Source: Phoebastria nigripes
Taxonomy: Eukaryota > Chordata > Aves > Procellariiformes > Diomedeidae
Reading direction: 5' to 3'
NCBI GenBank assembly: GCA_035582835.1
Contig: JAYKAV010002948.1
Coordinates: forward strand, 291,125-355,124
DNA length: 64,000 nucleotides
Part shown: positions 13,527 to 53,670 of the stretch, in pieces
How the letters are laid out: every line of letters begins with the position of its first letter
Numbering within the stretch: position 1 is the first letter of the stretch
Position numbers and translations under genes: made by a program
The notes under the pieces: model-generated
What the model was told of the DNA's origin: nothing
The model's database searches: none
What the model saw: only the letters and a program-made list of their open reading frames with translations

Positions 13527-13860
13527 GGATGTGAGGGCGATCTGGCTGCGACATCTGTCACCCCATTGATCGCCAGGGTTGATTCGACTGATCTGGCTGG
13601 CTAGGCAGGTGTCCCCTTCCTCCCTCACCACTCCATGTGTGTCCCTCCCAAAGCTGCATGTTTGGTCAAAGAGGATGACCTTCCCGATAGAGACAACACC
13701 AATAGAGATGTACCATTCATTGGTCAAGGGTATATGGTAGCTGCGCTCCCCTGCTAGAACCTCCAAACAAGCTTAAGGTCCATTTGTAGGAGAACGTAGG
13801 GTAGTCAAGCTTCCAAGACTGCAGACACATCCAAGTGAGGCACTGCATGGGGCAGTCTGG
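13527..13860 (+). pseudogene. RN7SK: 7SK snRNA retropseudogene, near full length
   Basis: The sequence matches vertebrate 7SK snRNA, as I remember it, from its first nucleotides (GGATGTGAGGGCGATC) to CAGTCTG near the 3' end. 7SK is the scaffold of the RNP that holds P-TEFb inactive through HEXIM. The GATC/GATC pairs of the 5' HEXIM-binding hairpin are intact (13539-13542, 13568-13571, 13590-13593), as is the long conserved 3' block (CTGCTAGAACCTCCAAACAA at about 13760). Evidence that it is a dead copy: the terminal pyrimidine/U tail is missing and replaced by A-rich sequence; many expected CG positions read TG or CA; a central segment (about 13690-13725) is longer than and unlike the known RNA; a 2-base gap follows CAAGCT; and no pol III promoter is visible. 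It lies directly upstream of a CR1 fragment in the same orientation. Confidence 0.93.
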
Positions 13861-13885
13861 AAAAAAAAAAATAAAAAAAAAAAAA
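13861..13885 (+). repeat. A-rich tract joining 7SK copy to CR1
   Basis: A run of As, with one T after the eleventh A, separates the end of the 7SK copy from the start of the CR1 fragment. It could be a poly(A) tail on the 7SK copy, or bases added at a template switch. CR1 itself does not end in poly(A), so the tract is unexpected either way. Confidence 0.85.
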
Positions 13886-14780
13886 GCAGACAACACCAAG
13901 CTGAGTGGTGCTGTTGACACACCTGAGGGACGGGATGCCATCCGGAGGGACCTGGACAAGCTCGGGAAGTGGACCTGTGTGAACCTCATGAGGTTCAACA
14001 AGTTAAGTGCAAGGTCCTGCATCTGGGTCGGGGCAACCCCCGGTATCAGTACAGGCTGGGGGATGAAGGGATTGAGAGCAGCCCTGCCGAGAAGGACTTG
14101 GGGGTCCTGGTGGATGAAAAGCTGGACATGAGACGACAATGTGCGCTCGCAGCCCAGAAGGCCAACCGTATCCTGGGCTGCATCAAAAGAAGCGTGGCCA
14201 GCAGGTCAAGGGAAGTGATTCTGCCCCTCTACTCTGCTCTGGTGAGACCCCACCTGGAGTACTGAGTCTAGCTCTGGAGCCCTCAGCACAAGACATGGAC
14301 CTGTTGGAGTGGGTCCAGAGGAGGGCCACGAAAATGATCAGGGGGATGGAACACCTCTCCTATGAAGAATGGCTGAGAGAGTTGGGGTTGTTCAGCCTGG
14401 ACAAGAGAAGGCTTCCGGGAGACGTTATTGCAGGCTTTCAGTACTTAAAGGGGGCTTATAAGAAAGATGGGGACAAACTTTTTAGCAGGGTCTGTTGCGA
14501 CAGGACAAGGGATAATGGTTTTAAACTAAGAGAGGGTAGATTTAGACTAGATATAAGGAAGAAATTTTTTATGCTGAGGGTGGTGAAACACTGGAGCAGG
14601 TTGCCCAGAGAGGTGGTAGATGCCCCATCCCTGGAAGCACTCAAGGTCAGGTTGGACGGGACTCTGAGTAACCTGATCTAGTTGAAGATGTCCCTGCCCA
14701 TGGCAGGGGGGTTGGACTAGATGACCTTTAAAAGGTCCCTTCCAATCCAAACTATTCTATGATTCTATGATTCTATGATT
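13886..14780 (+). mobile_element. CR1 LINE, 5'-truncated, RT C-terminus and 3' UTR
   Basis: Sense-orientation CR1 fragment of about 0.9 kb. It begins inside the reverse transcriptase catalytic block (ADNTKLSG, from the conserved FADDTKL). It carries the C-terminal half of ORF2 in two overlapping open frames, 13969-14265 and 14139-14681; the latter gives about 180 residues with few lesions and includes LLEWVQRRATKMIRGMEHL. The 3' UTR ends in three perfect ATTCTATG units (14753-14779). It is better preserved than the copy at 11205 and resembles the subfamily of the 50471-54830 element. It joins the 7SK copy through the A-rich tract. Confidence 0.95.
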
Positions 14781-25539: not shown

Positions 25540-25705
25540 TGGTACATTCGGTCTTTCTGGCTTTGCTGTGCTTTGGTTCAGCTATGTCATCCTGCTGTAT
25601 TTGTGGCCTGCCTGCAGCCGCCTTCTCCACAGTAGATAACTTGTGGCCATTCTTTTGGTGGTAAATTGAGGTGCTTTATCTGTTTCTTTATCATATTTAC
25701 CCATC
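25540..25705 (-). pseudogene. Gypsy integrase core fragment
   Basis: In one frame the - strand encodes TDKAPQFTTKR (25651-25683), resembling the integrase catalytic block SDNGPQFTSKEF with its Asp retained. About 25 codons later comes GHKYSRMT, a stop, then LNQSTAKPERPN (25546-25605), resembling the block HVTSSPxYPQSNGKAER that contains the catalytic Glu. Spacing between the two blocks is close to that of intact integrases. The zinc-binding N-terminus and first catalytic Asp were not found. An open frame at 26257-26487 lies between RNase H and this block but has no recognisable motif. Confidence 0.55.
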
Positions 25706-26714
25706 CTGATTAACCACCTCATCAAAAGGTAGAGCTAGGTCTTGCTACCCCAATGGTATTGCAATGCCATTTGTATGAATTGAATTCCAAGCCATATGAA
25801 ATTTTATATTGGTTTTTTTTTGCTTGTTTCCAAAAATTTCCATGCCTGATATCAGTGTATAGCAGTGAAGGTTTCAGTTTTCTGCAGGGGAAAAAAAGTC
25901 CTATACTTCCTTAGTGATAGTCTTACTTTAACTGAAGAGTATTAAATACATATGCATGTCAATCTCAGCATCTTTTTAGGTAGGTACTATATTTTTGTCA
26001 TTAACTTATTCCAACTACTTAGGCTGGAGGTAATTGGAGCTAGTTAATTATATTTTTAAATTCAAATTTCACTGCGAACTCATGCCTACTGAAAAGCATG
26101 CTGTAGCCAGGCCAGGAATACTATATTCCACAAAAATAAATTTATATAATTATTTGTTTAAGCATGGTTACTGTCCAGTATTTTAATCTCAGGGAAGGCA
26201 GAACAACTATAAAAAAAGCCTTATCATAAACAAATATATATAATGTAAAAAAATCTCTACCTGTAATTCCTTAATGGACCAAGTCTTCCTATATCACAAG
26301 CATTGGCTCTTTCAGATGACTTGTTATATATATTCTTTGTACTTTTTGTAAGCCAAACAGCCTTAATGAAAGCAATTGTTCTTTTTAGGTCAACATTGAA
26401 GTCTTGTCCTACTCTTAGGTTTTTGGTTCTGTAAATCATCCTTATACCTATCCTTTGAAGCAATTTTTTTCTATAATAGCTTGGCAATCATTATCTTGGT
26501 GCTTTCAAATAAAATCTCAACAGTACTGAAAGCCTTCCCTTGCAATGGGGTCTAGGAAGACACTGTACTGGTTCTCCAGGGCTACTTTTTGTAGGGTCTT
26601 GTTCCTAACAATAGTGCCAGGAATAATAGTCCTCATTTTCACCTGAAGCCAGACCACATTTTAATCAGATTCACAGTACATAATATACCTCTTGACTTAG
26701 CTCCATTGCACTGT

Positions 26715-27400
26715 CAAAATGCTCTGAGTGCATCTGCAACCACTAATTCTTTCCCCACTTGGTGTTCAATTTGCAAATCATACATTTGTAGCTGAAAAAA
26801 CAAGCTCTATTCTTAGCAGCAGCAGAACGGTTTGCCAGGCCCCTTTTGGCACTGTCAACAAGTGGTTTATGGTCAGTGTCAGCTAATAGTGGCCTCCCAT
26901 AAATAAAAACATGAAACATTTTTCACCCATGGACTGAGACCAAAGCCACATTCTTTATTTGAGTTTATTGAAAGCTTGGTTATTGTTCATTCCTATGATG
27001 ATTATTCTATTGGGGTTTTTAAGTTTTGACCACACCATTGTAAAGGATTGTGCAATGCTTTTCTTAGAGCCATCAGTGAACAAACTTGTTTTGCATTTAT
27101 CATCATAGCAACTCATGACTGAAATCTCATCGACCCCTTTAATCTCTTCCTTTTTTTAAGGGCCAGAATGAGTGTTTTGTCTTTATCGGGATACCAATTC
27201 ACTACAGCCTCCTGGTTCATTAAGCAAGAAAAAATCACTTGTATTTGCCATTTCTCTAAATAATCCTCTCCCTTCTAGGTAACAGAAAATGTTCCATTTT
27301 AGTGTGACTATTTAGCTTCTTGGAGTTGACATCTAAATGAAGGGTCCTTTTTCTGCGCTGAACTGCACGTGCCTGGATGTTTGTTGGTTCTCCTCGTTGC
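26715..27400 (-). pseudogene. Gypsy RT thumb and RNase H remnant
   Basis: RNase H degrades the RNA strand of the RNA-DNA hybrid during reverse transcription. In order on the - strand I read: FSAEKG and MSTP (27310-27372, the SAEG..P..MPTP region), DYLEKW (about 27265), NWYPDKDKTLILALKK (the W..E...AF..LK block), YDDKCKTSLFTDGSKKSIAQ (27040-27108, with the first RNase H Asp), then TQIK..ALV, then KMFHVFIYGRPLLADTDHKP (26858-26920, with the TDHKPL motif), and GKE/LVVADAL (26720-26775, with the last Asp, after a one-base frame change). Several stops and at least three frame changes interrupt it. The motif order and spacing leave little doubt about the family. Confidence 0.85.
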
Positions 27401-27454
27401 TGTATGGTTCTGAGGCAAAGAGCCTACTTCCCTATCTTCTTGCTGCAGACTTAG

Positions 27455-27640
27455 GGGGTTTCATGAGATCGCTGGGATTTTTCAAGTGTAGTACATAGAA
27501 GACAGGTGTGAACTTCTTTTTCCTCTGAATATAACCTTGGAACGTGTTTGACACAGCTAGTTCCTCTGCCATCTCCAGCGAATGCATCTGCTGGATGAAA
27601 CCAAGGGGTTTGGCACATTTCTAATGTGGTCTTTTCCCTG
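27455..27640 (-). pseudogene. Gypsy RT fingers fragment
   Basis: A short open frame (27451-27669) contains TPWFHPADAFAGDGRG, followed by SCVKHVPRLYSEEKEVH and TLEKSQRS. These align with the RT fingers blocks TxWCSPxVxVPKxDGKxRxCVDxxxLN and KREVHPLPxxxxTLAKL of Ty3/gypsy elements. The next recognisable block downstream belongs to the thumb, so the palm including the (Y/F)xDD active site is deleted between about 27460 and 27390. Confidence 0.6.
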
Positions 27641-28214
27641 AGTACTATTACAGGGAACAACTTTTCCATTCTCTATAAAATGGAGTGTAAACACCTCACA
27701 CGGGAAAAACGTGGAAAAAATTAATGAAAAGATATTACTACCATACCCTTCCTTTTGCTTTTTCACACACACACGTACACAAAGTTGAGACCAGAGAAGC
27801 AATTAGAAAATCTGCTGCAAAGGCATGATGAAGGGGCAGTTGCTCAGTGAGCTGCAGAGTTGCAGGGGGAGAGCAGCCCGTGGCAAGAGGAGATAGGCAG
27901 CGAAGCCAAGAAGCCACAGCTGGCTGGTGAGCAAGCTCAGCGGGAAGCAGAATGGGCCGTTCCTGGGGAAGGGCAATGATGCCCAGCAGCAAAAGGTCCC
28001 ACAGACAAGAGCCTCCCACACAGGGGAAGCCAGAGCCTGAGAGGGCCATGCTTGGGGGTGCGCATCAGGCTGGGCTACCACCCATCAAGGGCTTCGCTGG
28101 CTCACAGGTCCTTGCTCCAAGGCACATGAGGGACACCAACACTGAGCTCTGTGATGCTTCCCTGATTATATGGCAGTCTGTTATCTTCTGTCCATAAGGT
28201 TGTTGCTGGTTTTT

Positions 28215-28330
28215 TCCCTCAGAGCAAACATGTTTGCTTTTGGCACCACTTTGGCTTCTGCTCCTCTGACTGTGTTACGAGTAATGTGTCCCATTAGCTC
28301 TCAGGCTGACTGTCCATTTGTCATCTGCTG
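28215..28330 (-). pseudogene. Gypsy aspartic protease remnant
   Basis: The - strand encodes DDKWTVSLRANGTHY (28285-28326), a stop and frame change, then NTVRGAEAKVVPKANMFALR (28219-28280). This matches the gypsy protease pattern W.V.L..NG followed by DTGA.ANV(I/V)P, with the active-site DTG degraded to NTV-RG. The position, just after the zinc knuckle and before RT, is as expected for gag-pol. Confidence 0.65.
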
Positions 28331-28394
28331 CATCATTGTCCTATGAGGCTTGTTTGAGCTAGCAATACAGTGGCGTTCATTGTTCCTCCTGTGT

Positions 28395-28490
28395 GTATGC
28401 ACCACAGAAGTGTGTGTCCAAGGTTTTGTATCTTTTTCCATATGCTTGGCATTGGCAGTGCTGTTTGGCAAAGGATACACAACTTTTTGT
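28395..28490 (-). pseudogene. Gag zinc-knuckle remnant
   Basis: Two overlapping frames give CILC and, after a shift, CQAYGKRYK, followed in the first frame by LGHTLLWC. Read together these fit the gag nucleocapsid pattern C..C....H...CPA.GK.C..C...GHF...C of Mag-like gypsy elements. The frame change and lost cysteines make it a tentative call, supported mainly by its position between capsid and protease. Confidence 0.5.
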
Positions 28491-28619
28491 GCTATTTCCT
28501 TGTGGAATTTTATTTTGAGCTCTCATATACTTTTCTATCCTGGGTCACTCTTTTTGCATGTCTTGCTGGGCTTAGGTGTCCACTCCTAATGCATGTCATT
28601 CTGGACAGGTAGGCTCCTT

Positions 28620-28850
28620 TCCTTGAGAAAATCTAATGGCTTTGTCTAAAGGTTAGTTTTGGGAACTCCACAACAGTCTTGAGGTGTTTTTTCTTGCATC
28701 TAAATCCAAATTTATCATTTAATGTGTGATTTGATTAGTGCCACATACCTTCTAAACTGCAGCCTTCAGCTGTCAGCCTTTGTTCAATCTTTTTCACTTC
28801 TTTTTATTTCTTAGTGTGTTGAAACCTGTTTCTCCTAAGTTTCACCTTCA
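28620..28850 (-). pseudogene. Gypsy gag capsid C-terminal remnant
   Basis: One frame (with three stops) reads IEQRLTAEGCSLE, then NDKFGFRCKKKHLKTVVEFP, then KLTFRQ. It aligns with the conserved gag stretch FV..LR.LA..C.FG, then (I)RDRIV.GIRD..LRERLL.EPKLTLEKA. The match extends over about 60 residues with the correct spacing and lies immediately upstream of the zinc knuckle, which gives it more weight than any single motif. Confidence 0.65.
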
Positions 28851-36711: not shown

Positions 36712-37315
36712 CCACTGTCGTGTTTTAACCCCAGCTGGCAACTAAGCACCACACAGCTGCTCGCTCACTCCCCCTCAGTGGGATGGGGGAGAGAATCAGA
36801 AGAGTAAAAGTGAGAAAACTCATGGGTTGAGATAAAGACAGTTTAAGACATAAAGCAAAAGCCGTGCATTCAAGCAAAGCAAAACAAGGAATTCATTCAC
36901 TACTTCCCATCGGCAGGCAGGTGTTCAGCCATCTCCAGGAAAGCAGGGCTCCATCACGCATAACGGTTACTTGGGAAGACAAAGCACCATCACTCCAAAC
37001 GTCCCCCCTTCCTTCTTCTTCCCCCAGCTTTATCTGCTGAGCATGACGTCATGTGGTAAGGAATATCCCTTTGGTCAGTTGGGGTCAGCTGTCCCGCCTG
37101 TGTCCCCTCCCAACTTCTTGTGCACCCCCAGCCTACTCGCTGGTGGGGTGGTGGGAGAAGCAGAAAAGGCCTTGACTCTGTGTAAGCACTGCTCAGCAGT
37201 AACGAAAACATCCCTGTGTTATCCACCCTGTTTTCAGCACAAATCCAAAACATAGCCCCGTACTAGCTACTATGAAGAAAATTAACCCTATCCCAGCCAA
37301 AACCAGCACACCACT
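36712..37315 (-). mobile_element. Solo LTR of an endogenous retrovirus (copy 1)
   Basis: A 595-base LTR at 36716-37310. In sense (-) orientation it begins TGTGCTGGTTTTGGCTGGGA at 37310 and ends in CACGACA at 36716, so it has TG...CA ends with short inverted repeats (TGT...ACA). The host word CCAC(T) flanks both sides (36712-36716 and 37311-37315; one base is ambiguous with the LTR end), consistent with a target-site duplication. The U3 region holds a CRE palindrome (37044-37051) and a TATA-like AGATAAAG (about 37027-37034); a degenerate poly(A) signal (CTTAAAC) lies near 36841. No gag, pol or env sequence adjoins it, so it is a solo LTR left by recombination. I know the sequence type from many bird genomes but do not assign a family name. 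Confidence 0.9.
37044..37051. promoter_or_regulatory. CRE palindrome TGACGTCA in LTR U3
   Basis: A perfect cAMP-response element (CREB/ATF site) lies about 10 bases upstream, in sense orientation, of the TATA-like element of LTR copy 1. This is a normal promoter position. Whether it is active cannot be told from the sequence. Confidence 0.7.
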
Positions 37316-42439: not shown

Positions 42440-43061
42440 CCCTTTGTCATGGTTTAACCCCAGCCGGCTACTAAGCCCCACACAGCCGCTCGCTCACTCC
42501 CCCTCAGTGGGATGGGGGAGAGAATCGGAACCGTAAAAGTGAGAAAAATTCTGGGTTGAGATAAAGACAGTTTAATAGGCAAAGCAAAAGCTGCGCACAC
42601 AAGCAAAGCAAACCAAGGAATTCATTCACTGCTTCCCATCGGCAGGCAGGTGTTCAGCCATCTCCAGGAAAGCAGGGCTCCATCACGCATAACGGTTACT
42701 TGGGAAGACAAAGCACCATCACTCCANNNNNNNNNNNNNNNNNNNNNNNNNNNNNNNNNNNNNNNNNNNNNNNNNNNNNNNNNNNNNNNNNNNNNNNNNN
42801 NNNNNNNNNNNNNNNNNNNNNNNNNNNNNNNNNNNNNNNNNNNNNNNNNNNNNNNNNNNNNNNNNNNNNNNNNNNNNNNNNNNNNNNNNNNNNNNNNNNN
42901 NNNNNNNNNNNNNNNNNNNNNNNNNNNNNNNNNNNNNNNNNNNNNNNNNNNNNNNNCCCTGTGTTATCCACCCTGTTTTCAGCACAAATCCAAAACATAG
43001 CCCCATAGTAGCTACTATGAAGAAAATTAACTCTATCCCAGCCAAAACCAGCACTCCCTTT
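42440..43061 (-). mobile_element. Solo LTR of an endogenous retrovirus (copy 2, with gap)
   Basis: Second copy of the same LTR family in the same orientation, 42445-43055, with 230 Ns at 42727-42956. The flanking CCCTT(T) repeats on both sides (42440-42445 and 43056-43061), a clear target-site duplication different from that of copy 1. The outer parts are nearly identical to copy 1. Sense (-) strand shows the poly(A)-like CTATTAAAC near 42570. The gap replaces the segment that in copy 1 is 214 bases (36998-37211) and holds the TATA and CRE elements, so its size estimate is nearly right. No internal retroviral genes adjoin it. Confidence 0.9.
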
Positions 43062-50220: not shown

Positions 50221-50470
50221 GATGTTGGTGTTCACCAGCAGTATCACAACGCTAAGGACGATGTCAAATAAAGATAAATTTAGGGCCGCCAGTTTTCTTT
50301 CTGTTCCCCTGCAGCCAGTCAGTCTACCAGCTCCAGCCTCCTAAAACAGCCGGTTAGTAGGTCTTAAGTGAGAAGAAATGATGTTTAGTGGCCTCATGAT
50401 TGTGGGGCATTTCCACAATGTGTCTTTTGCTGTAAATTCTTCCCTTTTACAAAGCATATTGTTTGATTTC
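50221..50470. other. Region between CpG island and CR1, possible - strand exon
   Basis: On the - strand, a TACTAAC branch-point-like word precedes TTTTAG (about 50342), followed by an open frame that ends at a TGA near 50210. The frame encodes ERKLAALNLSLFDIVLSVV and then ILLVNTNIDVRG, a hydrophobic segment like a membrane anchor. I recognise no protein, and chance is a real possibility. Confidence 0.2.
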
Positions 50471-50896
50471 ATAGAACCATAGAATGGTTTGGGTTGGAAG
50501 GGACCTTAAAGANCATCTAGTTCCANCCCCNCTGCCATGGGCAGGGACACCTTCCACTAGACCAGGTTGCTCAAAGCCCCATCCAACCTGGCCTTCCAGG
50601 GATGGGACATCCACAACTTCTCTGGGCAACCTGTTCCAGTGCCTCACCACCCTCATAGTGAAGAATTTCTTCCTTATATCTAATCTAAATCTACCCTCTT
50701 CCAGTTTAAAGCCATTACCCCTCGTCCTATCACTACATGCCCTTGTACAAAGTCCCTCTCCAGCTTTCTTGTAGGCCCCCTTCAGGTACTGGAAGGCTGC
50801 TATAAGGTCTCCCTGGAGCCTTCTCTTCTCCAGGCTGAACAACCCCAACTCTCTCAGCCTGTCTTCATNGGAGAGGTGCTCCAGCCCTCTGATCAT
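50471..50896 (-). pseudogene. CR1 ORF2 C-terminal part and 3' UTR
   Basis: The frame encodes MIRGLEHLS, then [20 protein letters not shown], then [20 protein letters not shown], the conserved end of CR1 ORF2. It is out of frame with the RT part because of a one-base deletion at about 51040, in a run of As (ATCAAAAAAGC where the copy at 14185 has ATCAAAAGAAGC). The 3' UTR follows, with Ns at 50513, 50526 and 50531. Confidence 0.9.
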
Positions 50897-51036
50897 CTTC
50901 GTGGCCCTCCTCTGGACTCACTCCAACAGGTCCATGTCCCTCTTATGTTGGGGGCCCCAGAGCTGGATGCAGTACTCCAGGTGGGGTCTCAGGAGAGTGG
51001 AGCAGAGGGGCAGAATCACCTCCCTTAACCTGCTGG

Positions 51037-52698
51037 TCATGCTTTTTTGATGCAGCCCAGAATACGGTTGGCTTTCTGGGCTGCAAGCGCACATTGCTGG
51101 GTCATGTTGAGCTTCTCATCAACCAACACCCCCAAGTCCTTCTCCTCAGGGCTGCTCTCAATCCATTCTCCTCCCAGCTTGTATTTGTGCTTGGGATTGC
51201 CCCAACCCATGTGGAGGACCTTGCACTTGGCCTTGTTGAACTTCATGAGGTTCACACAGGCCCACCTCTCAAGCCTGTCAAGGTCCCTCTGGATGGCANC
51301 CCTTCCCTCCAGCNTGTNGACCNCACCACNCAGCTTNGTGTNGTCNGCAAACTTGCTGAGGGTGCACTCAATCCCACTGTCCATGTTGCTCACAAAGATG
51401 TTAAACAGCACCGGTCCCAATACTGACCCCTGAGGAACGTCACTCATCGCTGGTCTCCACTTGGACATCGAGCCGTTGACTGCAACTCTTTGAGTGCGAC
51501 CATCCAGCCAATTCCTTATCCACTGAGTGGTCCATCCATCAAATCCATGTCTCTCCAATTTAGAGACAAGGATGTCATGCGGGACAGTGTCAACTGCTTT
51601 GCACAAGTCCAGGTAGACAACGTCAGTTGCTCTTCCCTTATCCACCAATGCTGTAACCCCATCATAGAAGGCCACCAAATTTGTCAGGCACGATTTGCCC
51701 TTAGTGAAGCCATGTTGGCTGTCACCAATCACCTCCTTATTTTCCATGTGCCTTGGCATAGTTTCCAGGAGGATCTGCTCCATGATCTTCCCAGGCACAG
51801 AGGTGAGACTGACCGGCCTGTAGTTCCCCGGGTCTTCCTCTTTCCCCTTTTTAAAAATGGGGATTATGTTTCCCCTTTTCCTGTCAGTGGGAACTTCACT
51901 GGACTGCCACAACTTCTCAAATATAATGGATAGTGGTTTAGCAACTTCATCCGCCAGTTCCCTCAGGACCCACGGGTGGATCTCATCAGATCCCATGGAC
52001 TTGTGCACCTTCAGGCTCCTTAGATGGTCTCGAACCTGATCTTCTCCTACAGTGGGTGGCTCTTCATTCTCCCAGTCCCTGCCTTTGCCTTCTGCGGCTT
52101 GGGCGGTGTGGCTCGAGCACTTGCCGGTGAAGACCGAGGCAAAAAAGTCATTGAGTACTTCAGTCTTCTCCATATCCTGGGTAACCAGATCTCCTGTTTC
52201 GTTCCGGAGAGGGCCCACATTTTCCCTCGTCTTCCTTTTATCCCCGACGTACCTAGAGAAGCTTTTCTTGTTGCCCTTGATGTCCCTGGCCAGATTTAAT
52301 TCTATCAGGGCTTTAGCTTTCCTAACCTGATCNCTGGCTGCTCGGACAATTTCTNTNTATTCCTCCCAGGCTACCTGTCCTTGCTTCCACCCTCTGTAGG
52401 CTTCCTTTTTGTGTTTGAGTGTGTCCAGGAGCTCCTTNTTCATCCANGCAGGCCTCCTGGCNTTTTTGCCTGACTTCCTCTTNNNTGGGNTGCATCGCTC
52501 CTGAGCTTGGAGGAGGTCATCCTTGAAGATTAACCAGCTTTCTTGGGCCCCTCTTCCCTCCAGGGCTTTATCCCATCGCACTCTACCAAGCAGATCCCTG
52601 AGGAGGCCAAATGCTCTCCTGAAGTCCAGGGTAGTGAGCTTGCTTGTGCGACCTCCTCGGTGCCCTAAGGATCTTGAACTGCACCATTTCATGGTCAC
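51037..52698 (-). pseudogene. CR1 ORF2 reverse transcriptase domain
   Basis: A 553-codon open frame, the longest in the window. It starts in the endonuclease-RT linker (LTTLDFRRAFGLLRDLLGRV, lacking the Asp of the usual RRADFGL), then shows RT blocks: [58 protein letters not shown] (first catalytic Asp region), [20 protein letters not shown], and FxDxxKL where the catalytic FADD falls partly on Ns. After it come [20 protein letters not shown] and [20 protein letters not shown]. It makes cDNA on nicked target DNA in intact elements. The frame ends at a stop after ILGCIKKA owing to a one-base deletion. Confidence 0.95.
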
Positions 52699-53476
52699 TG
52701 CAGCCCAGGCTGCCCTTGAGCTTCACATTCCCCACCAGCCCCTCCTTGTTGGTGACAACACGGTCCAGCATAGCACCTCTCCTCGTNGGCCCCTCTACCA
52801 CTTGGAGAAGGAAGTTATCACCGATGCATTCCAGGAACCTCCTGGATTGCTTATGCCCTGCCATGTTGTTCCTCCAACAGATATCAGGGTGGTTGAAGCC
52901 CCCCATGAGGACCAGGGCTTGTGAAGGTGAGGCTGCTCCTATCTGTCTATAGAAGGCCTCATCTGCTCGGTCTTCCTGGTCGGGTGGCCTGTAGCAGACC
53001 CCCACTGTAATGTCACCTGTCCCTGCCCTCCCTTTAATCCTGACCCATAAGCTCTTGGTCGGCCCCTCATCCATCCCCAGGCAGAGCTCCATGCACTCCA
53101 GCTGGTCATTGACATAGAGGGTGACACCCCCTCCTCGTCTCCCCTGCCTGTCCTTCCTAAAGAGCTTGTATCCTTCCATTCCNACACTCCAATCATAGGA
53201 GCCATCCCACCACGTCTCTGTGATGCCAATAAGGTCGTAGCCCTGCAGGTGTGTGCATGTCTCTAACTCCTTTATTCCCCATGCTACGTGCGTTTGCATA
53301 GAGGCATTTAAGTTGGGCCACCGATGAAGCTNTCTTACTGGCTGGGGTTCCTTCCTGCTGCTCTTCAGGTGCTCTACTGCTGACCTGTGATCCTTCTCCA
53401 GGCTCTGGGCATCTATTGGTGGCACTGGCATCAAACTGGTAGGAGTGGGATGTATTGAGGTTCCCCTCCCCGGCAA
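52583..53476 (-). pseudogene. CR1 ORF2 AP-like endonuclease domain
   Basis: A 297-codon frame encodes YDLIGITETWWDGSYDW (with the catalytic Glu), then [57 protein letters not shown] and GSLGCSDHEMVQFKI (with the catalytic SDH). The usual GDFNHPD reads GGFNHPD, so one catalytic Asp is lost, which would inactivate target nicking. The frame then leaves the RT frame near 52640, so a frameshift separates the domains. The first 40 or so residues upstream of YDLIGI are degraded, and the expected N-terminal LxxLYTNARS block is not clear. Confidence 0.93.
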
Positions 53477-53670
53477 CTTTAATTTAAAGACCTCTTCACC
53501 AGCTTGGCAAGCCTACAACCGAAGATGCTCTTCCCCTTCTCTGAAAGATGGACCCCATCAGCCCCCAGTAGACCAGGTTTCCCAAACCAAGTCCCATGGT
53601 CTAAGTAGCTGAACAGTCCCATGGTCTAAGTAGCAGAACTGCGGCACCAGTCCTGTAACTATTTGTTGAT

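Follow-up and report, generated by a model that had tools for sequence, protein, structure and literature searches.

A probable Ty3/gypsy retrotransposon relic with a recognisable RNase H in an albatross genome

Gypsy fossils older than the amniotes and the tetrapods have been recovered by a codon-trained search of DNA against proteins (Frith 2022; PMC9004415). In the part of that study considered here, 83 pre-amniote Gypsy fossils were reported from human, of which 3 were known earlier from RepeatMasker, and four more, 159-328 bp in size in human, were dated to the tetrapods by genome alignments. For birds, the repeat table of the spotted owl lists 111 Gypsy/DIRS1 copies in 14,921 bp, or about 134 bp each (PMC5629816), and that of the gyrfalcon lists 15,529 entries for 'LTR-RT-Gypsy' (PMC9997569), some of which may be misnamed endogenous retroviruses (ERVs). 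A review states, in the section available to us, that BEL and DIRS elements are undetected in bird genomes (PMC5753468), and the accessible parts of five other papers (PMC5486457, PMC5006616, PMC4299795, PMC9025612, PMC8310711) have little bearing on the subject. Here we analyse a window of 64,000 nucleotides from Phoebastria nigripes (contig JAYKAV010002948.1, positions 291,125 to 355,124), the whole stretch to which all coordinates below refer. Its minus strand at about 28.3-25.5 kb very probably carries what is left of a single Ty3/gypsy (Metaviridae-type) long terminal repeat (LTR) retrotransposon, now dead and frameshifted, with a recognisable ribonuclease H (RNase H), a likely protease and junction of reverse transcriptase (RT) and RNase H, and a possible integrase. 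Given the human and spotted owl records (PMC9004415, PMC5629816; both as far as their accessible parts go), such an element in a bird is less surprising than the first-pass annotation of this DNA had claimed.

The first-pass annotation had placed the relic on the minus strand of 25540-28850, and both strands of the window were searched. Eight short family motifs were compared with both strands by a local alignment permitting frame changes. The scores were judged against 60 shuffled single strands of 64 kb, the two-strand search of the window covering twice the space of such a control, and against 900 shuffled blocks of the size of the locus, 3.6 kb. The best-preserved block was the C-terminal part of the RNase H, with the following features:

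27122-26726, minus strand: RNase H C-terminal block, read in three frames
26860-26907, minus strand: RNase H, FIYGRPLLADTDHKPL, in the second frame
26726-26785, minus strand: RNase H end, MYDLQIEHQVGKELVVADAL, in the third frame; end of the frameshift-tolerant alignment scoring 89.6 and top window match of a real Ty3 piece

The RNase H tail motif scored 89.6 at 26726 in the frameshift-tolerant alignment, against 39.7 for the highest-scoring unrelated position of the window and a mean of 36.5 (sd 3.6, maximum 45.6) in the 60 shuffled strands, and none of the 900 shuffled blocks reached this score. Scores of 62.5 (26573) and 42.8 (26408) were also obtained, which we regard as tails of that one alignment. 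With column-permuted versions of the motif (n=40) the real window gave no score above 55.8, two reversed-sequence controls gave at most 35.9, and the result was stable under three gap settings. When gaps and frame changes were forbidden, FIYGRPLLADTDHKPL alone had an ungapped score of 56.2, while none of 40 shuffles gave more than 41.5. A real RNase H piece from yeast Ty3 found its top window match at exactly 26726. It scored 58.5 there and 46.5 at the next place, and the highest value among 60 shuffles (58.4) came near the real one. Regions corresponding to the YGR-x5-TDHKPL and VADALSR of a gypsy-type RNase H were present at Ty3 spacing: the distance from the D of TDGS to that of TDHKPL is 200 nt here and 204 nt (68 residues) in Ty3, and from the latter to the D of VADAL it is 140 nt here as against 129 nt in Ty3. 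The motif itself retrieved Ty3 in PDB at 2e-10 and PF17917 at 7e-6. Together these results are decisive for the presence of the RNase H tail of a Ty3/gypsy pol on the minus strand.

The first-pass annotation had read six gypsy domains in the right order on this strand, and all 13 of its quoted peptides that we located are present there. Besides the RNase H, the features concerned are:

28614-28652, minus strand: possible gag tail (PLDKAIRFSQGKE), by eye; overlapped in another frame by the LTFRQ block of the first-pass annotation
28389-28481, minus strand: possible zinc-knuckle remnant (CVSFAKQHCQCQAYGKRYKTLDTHFCGAYTQ), by eye
28220-28316, minus strand: protease remnant, WTVSLRANG (28316-28290) and GAEAKVVPKANMFAL (28264-28220); best window match of the protease motif
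27562-27609, minus strand: TPWFHPADAFAGDGRG, previously called 'RT fingers'; located, with no Pfam match
27051-27122, minus strand: RT/RNase H link and RNase H start (SVMSCYDDKCKTSLFTDGSKKSIA); best window match of the link motif
26190-26358, minus strand: possible integrase zinc and first catalytic-D regions (VWLTKSTKNIYNKSSERANACDI; GRDFFTLYIFVYDKAFFIVVLPSL), by eye
25552-25686, minus strand: possible integrase from the second D to the E, ETDKAPQF (25686-25663) and QSTAKPER (25575-25552); best locus match of the motif

The domains differed in how well they could be recovered. Support for the RT/RNase H link, in the right order, is moderate: its motif, which when checked retrieved PF17919 at 6.4e-10 and the Ty3 RT/RNase H in PDB at 7e-5, had its window best of 37.0 at 27054 (next place 30.5), a score that was reached by none of the 900 blocks but by 2 of the 60 shuffled strands. 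Moderate support was likewise obtained for a protease remnant upstream of the RNase H. Its motif scored 35.3 at 28220, the best in the window (next place 31.5), on the minus strand and upstream of the RNase H as in the gypsy order; the score was reached by 3 of the 900 blocks and exceeded by 3 of the 60 strands, and the motif matched PF13975 (E 0.0014) and PF13650 (E 0.0015), both under the cut-offs. The 'RT fingers' at 27609-27562 had no Pfam match and no other support, and we do not accept them as RT.

For an integrase downstream of the RNase H the evidence is suggestive. The motif spanning the second D to the E scored 29.8 at 25552, which is the best match of the locus and lies at the expected end, and this score was matched by 207 of the 900 blocks. 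A spaced pattern of its two parts, made post hoc, occurred once in the window and not at all in 200 shuffles. Taken singly, the two parts had 2 and 1 occurrences in the window, and 9 each in the 200 shuffles. The locus scores of the zinc and first-D motifs were matched by 561 and 149 of the 900 blocks, with the best matches elsewhere. When the templates were checked, the integrase zinc motif retrieved PF17921 at 2.8e-6 and the integrase core motif retrieved rve at 4.7e-5, under the Pfam cut-off, while the first-D, zinc-knuckle and gag motifs had no Pfam match. Gag tail and zinc knuckle are not supported. The gag motif scored only 20.9 at the tail in 28614-28652, with higher values elsewhere in the locus, and 90 of the 900 blocks matched its locus score; the zinc-knuckle motif scored 22.8 at 28434, under the shuffled-block mean of 28.9, and 754 of the 900 blocks matched its locus score, the best match in both cases lying away from the quoted place. 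Several of the gag, zinc-knuckle and integrase zinc and first-D regions look convincing by eye, which we do not take as evidence. Six domains is too many to claim: the RNase H is secure, support is moderate for the protease and for the link of RT and RNase H, the integrase is suggestive, and gag, zinc knuckle and RT fingers are unsupported.

Profile searches of single reading frames were made with 20 pieces (10, plus 10 shorter ones mostly inside the first ten) in which stops were written as X. The set left out the segment 28.85-28.76 kb; at about 28.0-27.3 kb it lacked frames 0 and 1, at 28.0-27.8 kb frame 2, and below 25.64 kb again frames 0 and 1. The first-pass annotation had proposed to abandon the gypsy assignment if no hidden Markov model for RNase H or integrase matched the minus strand, and, formally, this is the outcome in single frames, since no piece matched a Pfam retroelement family. 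We put the missing matches down to decay and frame breaks. As a positive control, seven CR1-like frames of the window were searched in Pfam, and 4 matched while 3 did not; the matches were to RVT_1 (1.8e-27), an endonuclease (2e-9) and RVT_1 twice more (9.8e-6 and 4.2e-5, both below the cut-off). Because CR1 frames match Pfam and those of the relic do not, the relic is either unreal or more decayed than the better-kept CR1s. Weak matches of the relic to DUF3278 (0.021), CxxCxxCC (0.088, 0.0083) and PAN_2 (0.13) were below the cut-offs and were taken as chance.

Other collections added little. One search of PDB with the window's own pieces gave no match and another gave a single unrelated match at E 0.99, and no gypsy homologue was found in the protein database at E <= 10, either in a search with 6 candidates or in a second one. 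From IMG/VR, 13 pattern matches were unconfirmed, 6 loci were false and a further pattern had no match, and 4 loci on GTDB contigs were judged to be chance matches. None of the protein, IMG/VR and GTDB collections scanned yielded a gypsy reference from a vertebrate.

Several observations weigh against a gypsy relic. The eight motif templates were written after the window had been read, and none comes from a vertebrate gypsy element. Five of the eight (gag, zinc knuckle and the three for integrase) were not significant on their own in the 900 shuffled blocks, and 0 of the 20 single-frame pieces matched any Pfam retroelement family at E <= 10. The real Ty3 link piece had its locus best at 27054 (38.5), yet at least 4 places elsewhere in the window score higher, and the piece from cauliflower mosaic virus (CaMV), the second real reference, does not single out the locus. 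The RT core of Ty3/gypsy elements carries the motifs LPFG and YxDD; no such core was demonstrated, RVT_1 being absent from the pieces scanned, where two frames of 28.0-27.3 kb were left out and no RT core motif was aligned. There was no significant pair of LTRs, the best direct match between the flanks (37.0) being equalled by 34 of 300 shuffles; old LTRs at the flanks of the relic may have become unrecognisable. Finally, the smallest stop count with which the RNase H can be read when frames are switched was also reached by 16-34% of shuffles.

That most of the quoted domains fail their own test and that no Pfam retroelement matches is what would be expected if motif-like peptides had been picked by eye from six frames, but the RNase H tail beats all controls that were run, whether shuffles, permuted motif, reversed sequence or the rest of the window, and chance is therefore an extremely improbable explanation. 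A decayed ERV is very unlikely. The LTR elements commonly found in birds are ERVs, and TDGS also stands at the start of the retroviral RNase H, both of which speak for such an origin. In PDB, the RNase H motif found three distinct sequences out of 177,635 at E <= 10, namely two of Ty3 and one, 8r0s (E 0.045), whose 'Enzymatic polyprotein' is presumably that of CaMV; none was retroviral. Because the motif finds Ty3 and no retroviral RT, gypsy is likelier than ERV, and the assignment to Ty3/gypsy made from the first reading is upheld by its best-preserved block. In a weak test, a piece of murine leukaemia virus (MLV) type matched the locus best at 28380, away from the RNase H link, and the best locus matches of two pieces of retroviral integrase, at 26739 and 27174, lay away from the quoted integrase; none of these matches was significant, and no Ty3 integrase piece was tried. 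No retroviral RNase H or integrase was seen to match better than gypsy, the comparison by pieces being weak since no piece was significant.

In this family, movement through reverse transcription of the element's RNA and insertion by the integrase is established, and the living Ty3/gypsy element would have used this route. Loss of function would have been followed by decay through frameshifts, stops and perhaps an internal insertion. A candidate for the latter is a G+C-rich segment:

27800-28200, strand not assigned: G+C-rich stretch inside the relic, 57% G+C, with no gypsy-like reading

The adjoining 200-nt bins have 39% and 46% G+C, and self-comparison of the window revealed no second copy. 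The stretch is perhaps a later insertion into the relic. Judged by its sequence, the relic is best read as inert now, with no demonstrable activity.

The first reading had taken the heavy decay as a sign of great age, which is not established. Stop codons are uninformative for dating, since shuffles often have equally few: for a path with at most 2 frame switches, this is the case for 21% of them. Of the motif residues counted, the RNase H block retains 19 of 29, a figure that becomes 19 of 36 when seven specified mid-motif positions are taken as lost (53-66%). This retention, if neutral, corresponds to about 0.1-0.35 substitutions per site, and to a smaller value if the motif was a poor fit to the living element. 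A neutral insertion of pre-amniote age is expected to have accumulated about 0.6 substitutions per site, and the retention is above what neutral decay predicts at d = 0.6, so that, if neutral, the lower range fits better. With an avian rate of 1.9e-9 per site per year and under neutrality, the relic would be about 50-180 million years old. This is only a hint, and the estimate is biased downward because the block was noticed for being well kept. We tentatively consider it possible that the element is no Paleozoic leftover but was mobile in the line of archosaurs or birds later than the amniote split, probably during the Mesozoic. If true, the bird lineage would have kept gypsy activity, whether vertical or by horizontal arrival, far longer than is commonly stated. 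The retained residues, more numerous than neutral decay at d = 0.6 predicts, would also be accounted for by an ancient pre-amniote fragment that was exapted and kept by selection, like the conserved fossils of Frith 2022, and the extreme conservation of those published fossils, as described in the part considered, lends this some weight (PMC9004415). We regard exaptation as unlikely: a younger neutral insertion accounts for the retention equally well, and the block is frameshifted and therefore has not been kept as a protein.

Several other elements were observed in the window, including several CR1 copies. A long CR1 at 50469-53512 on the minus strand has an open frame of 561 codons (RVT_1, E 1.8e-27), together with a frame for an endonuclease (Exo_endo_phos, E 2e-9). 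At 13527-14770 on the plus strand lies a 7SK/CR1 chimera, in which a full-length copy of the 7SK RNA (Rfam RF00100, positions 1-331, 299 bits) is followed by an A-rich stretch and joined at 13886 to the 3' part of a 5'-truncated CR1 in the same orientation, which is 83% identical to the CR1 at 51348-50469. Inspection by eye revealed no clear target-site duplication. The chimera looks like the product of template switching during CR1 reverse transcription, a mechanism put forward for a passerine short interspersed element (PMC5729268) and, reportedly, for human U6/L1. No paper on a 7SK-CR1 chimera was among the literature matches listed. On the plus strand, two copies of an LTR-like repeat are located at 36716-37312 and 42445-43057, the latter containing a run of N; they are 92% and 96% identical over two aligned parts. 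We take this repeat to be an avian ERVL-type LTR. Its copies and the CR1 elements fit a bird as host; in a turtle or a crocodilian a relic of this kind would be ordinary.

Multi-domain gypsy relics in birds could date the extinction of this class in the line leading to birds, and could show whether the present scarcity of gypsy elements reflects an early loss or a late extinction. No such avian relic was among the literature matches listed, a coverage outside of which many subscription papers fall. The present relic also illustrates how single-frame profile searches can miss an element whose best domain is interrupted by changes of frame. By eye, its wording GKELVVADAL and CQAYGKR seems to recall metazoan Mag-type elements more than Ty3. 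It resembles yeast Ty3 (PDB 4ol8, 7q5b) in the RNase H tail motif, in the order of the likely protease and the RNase H and in the aspartate spacing of 200 versus 204 nt, and differs from it in that its RNase H is read in three frames and its RT core, gag and LTRs are unrecognisable. With the Paleozoic fossils of Frith 2022, as far as described in the part considered (PMC9004415), it shares the character of decayed gypsy protein pieces missed by standard searches; it consists of several blocks over about 2.7 kb in a bird, whereas the four tetrapod-age examples are 159-328 bp and dated by alignment. The Gypsy/DIRS1 entries in the spotted owl table (PMC5629816, seen in part) are likewise small amounts of gypsy-like DNA in a bird; the relic is longer than these and multi-domain. 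It is best taken for an inert fossil, and its kind is already known.

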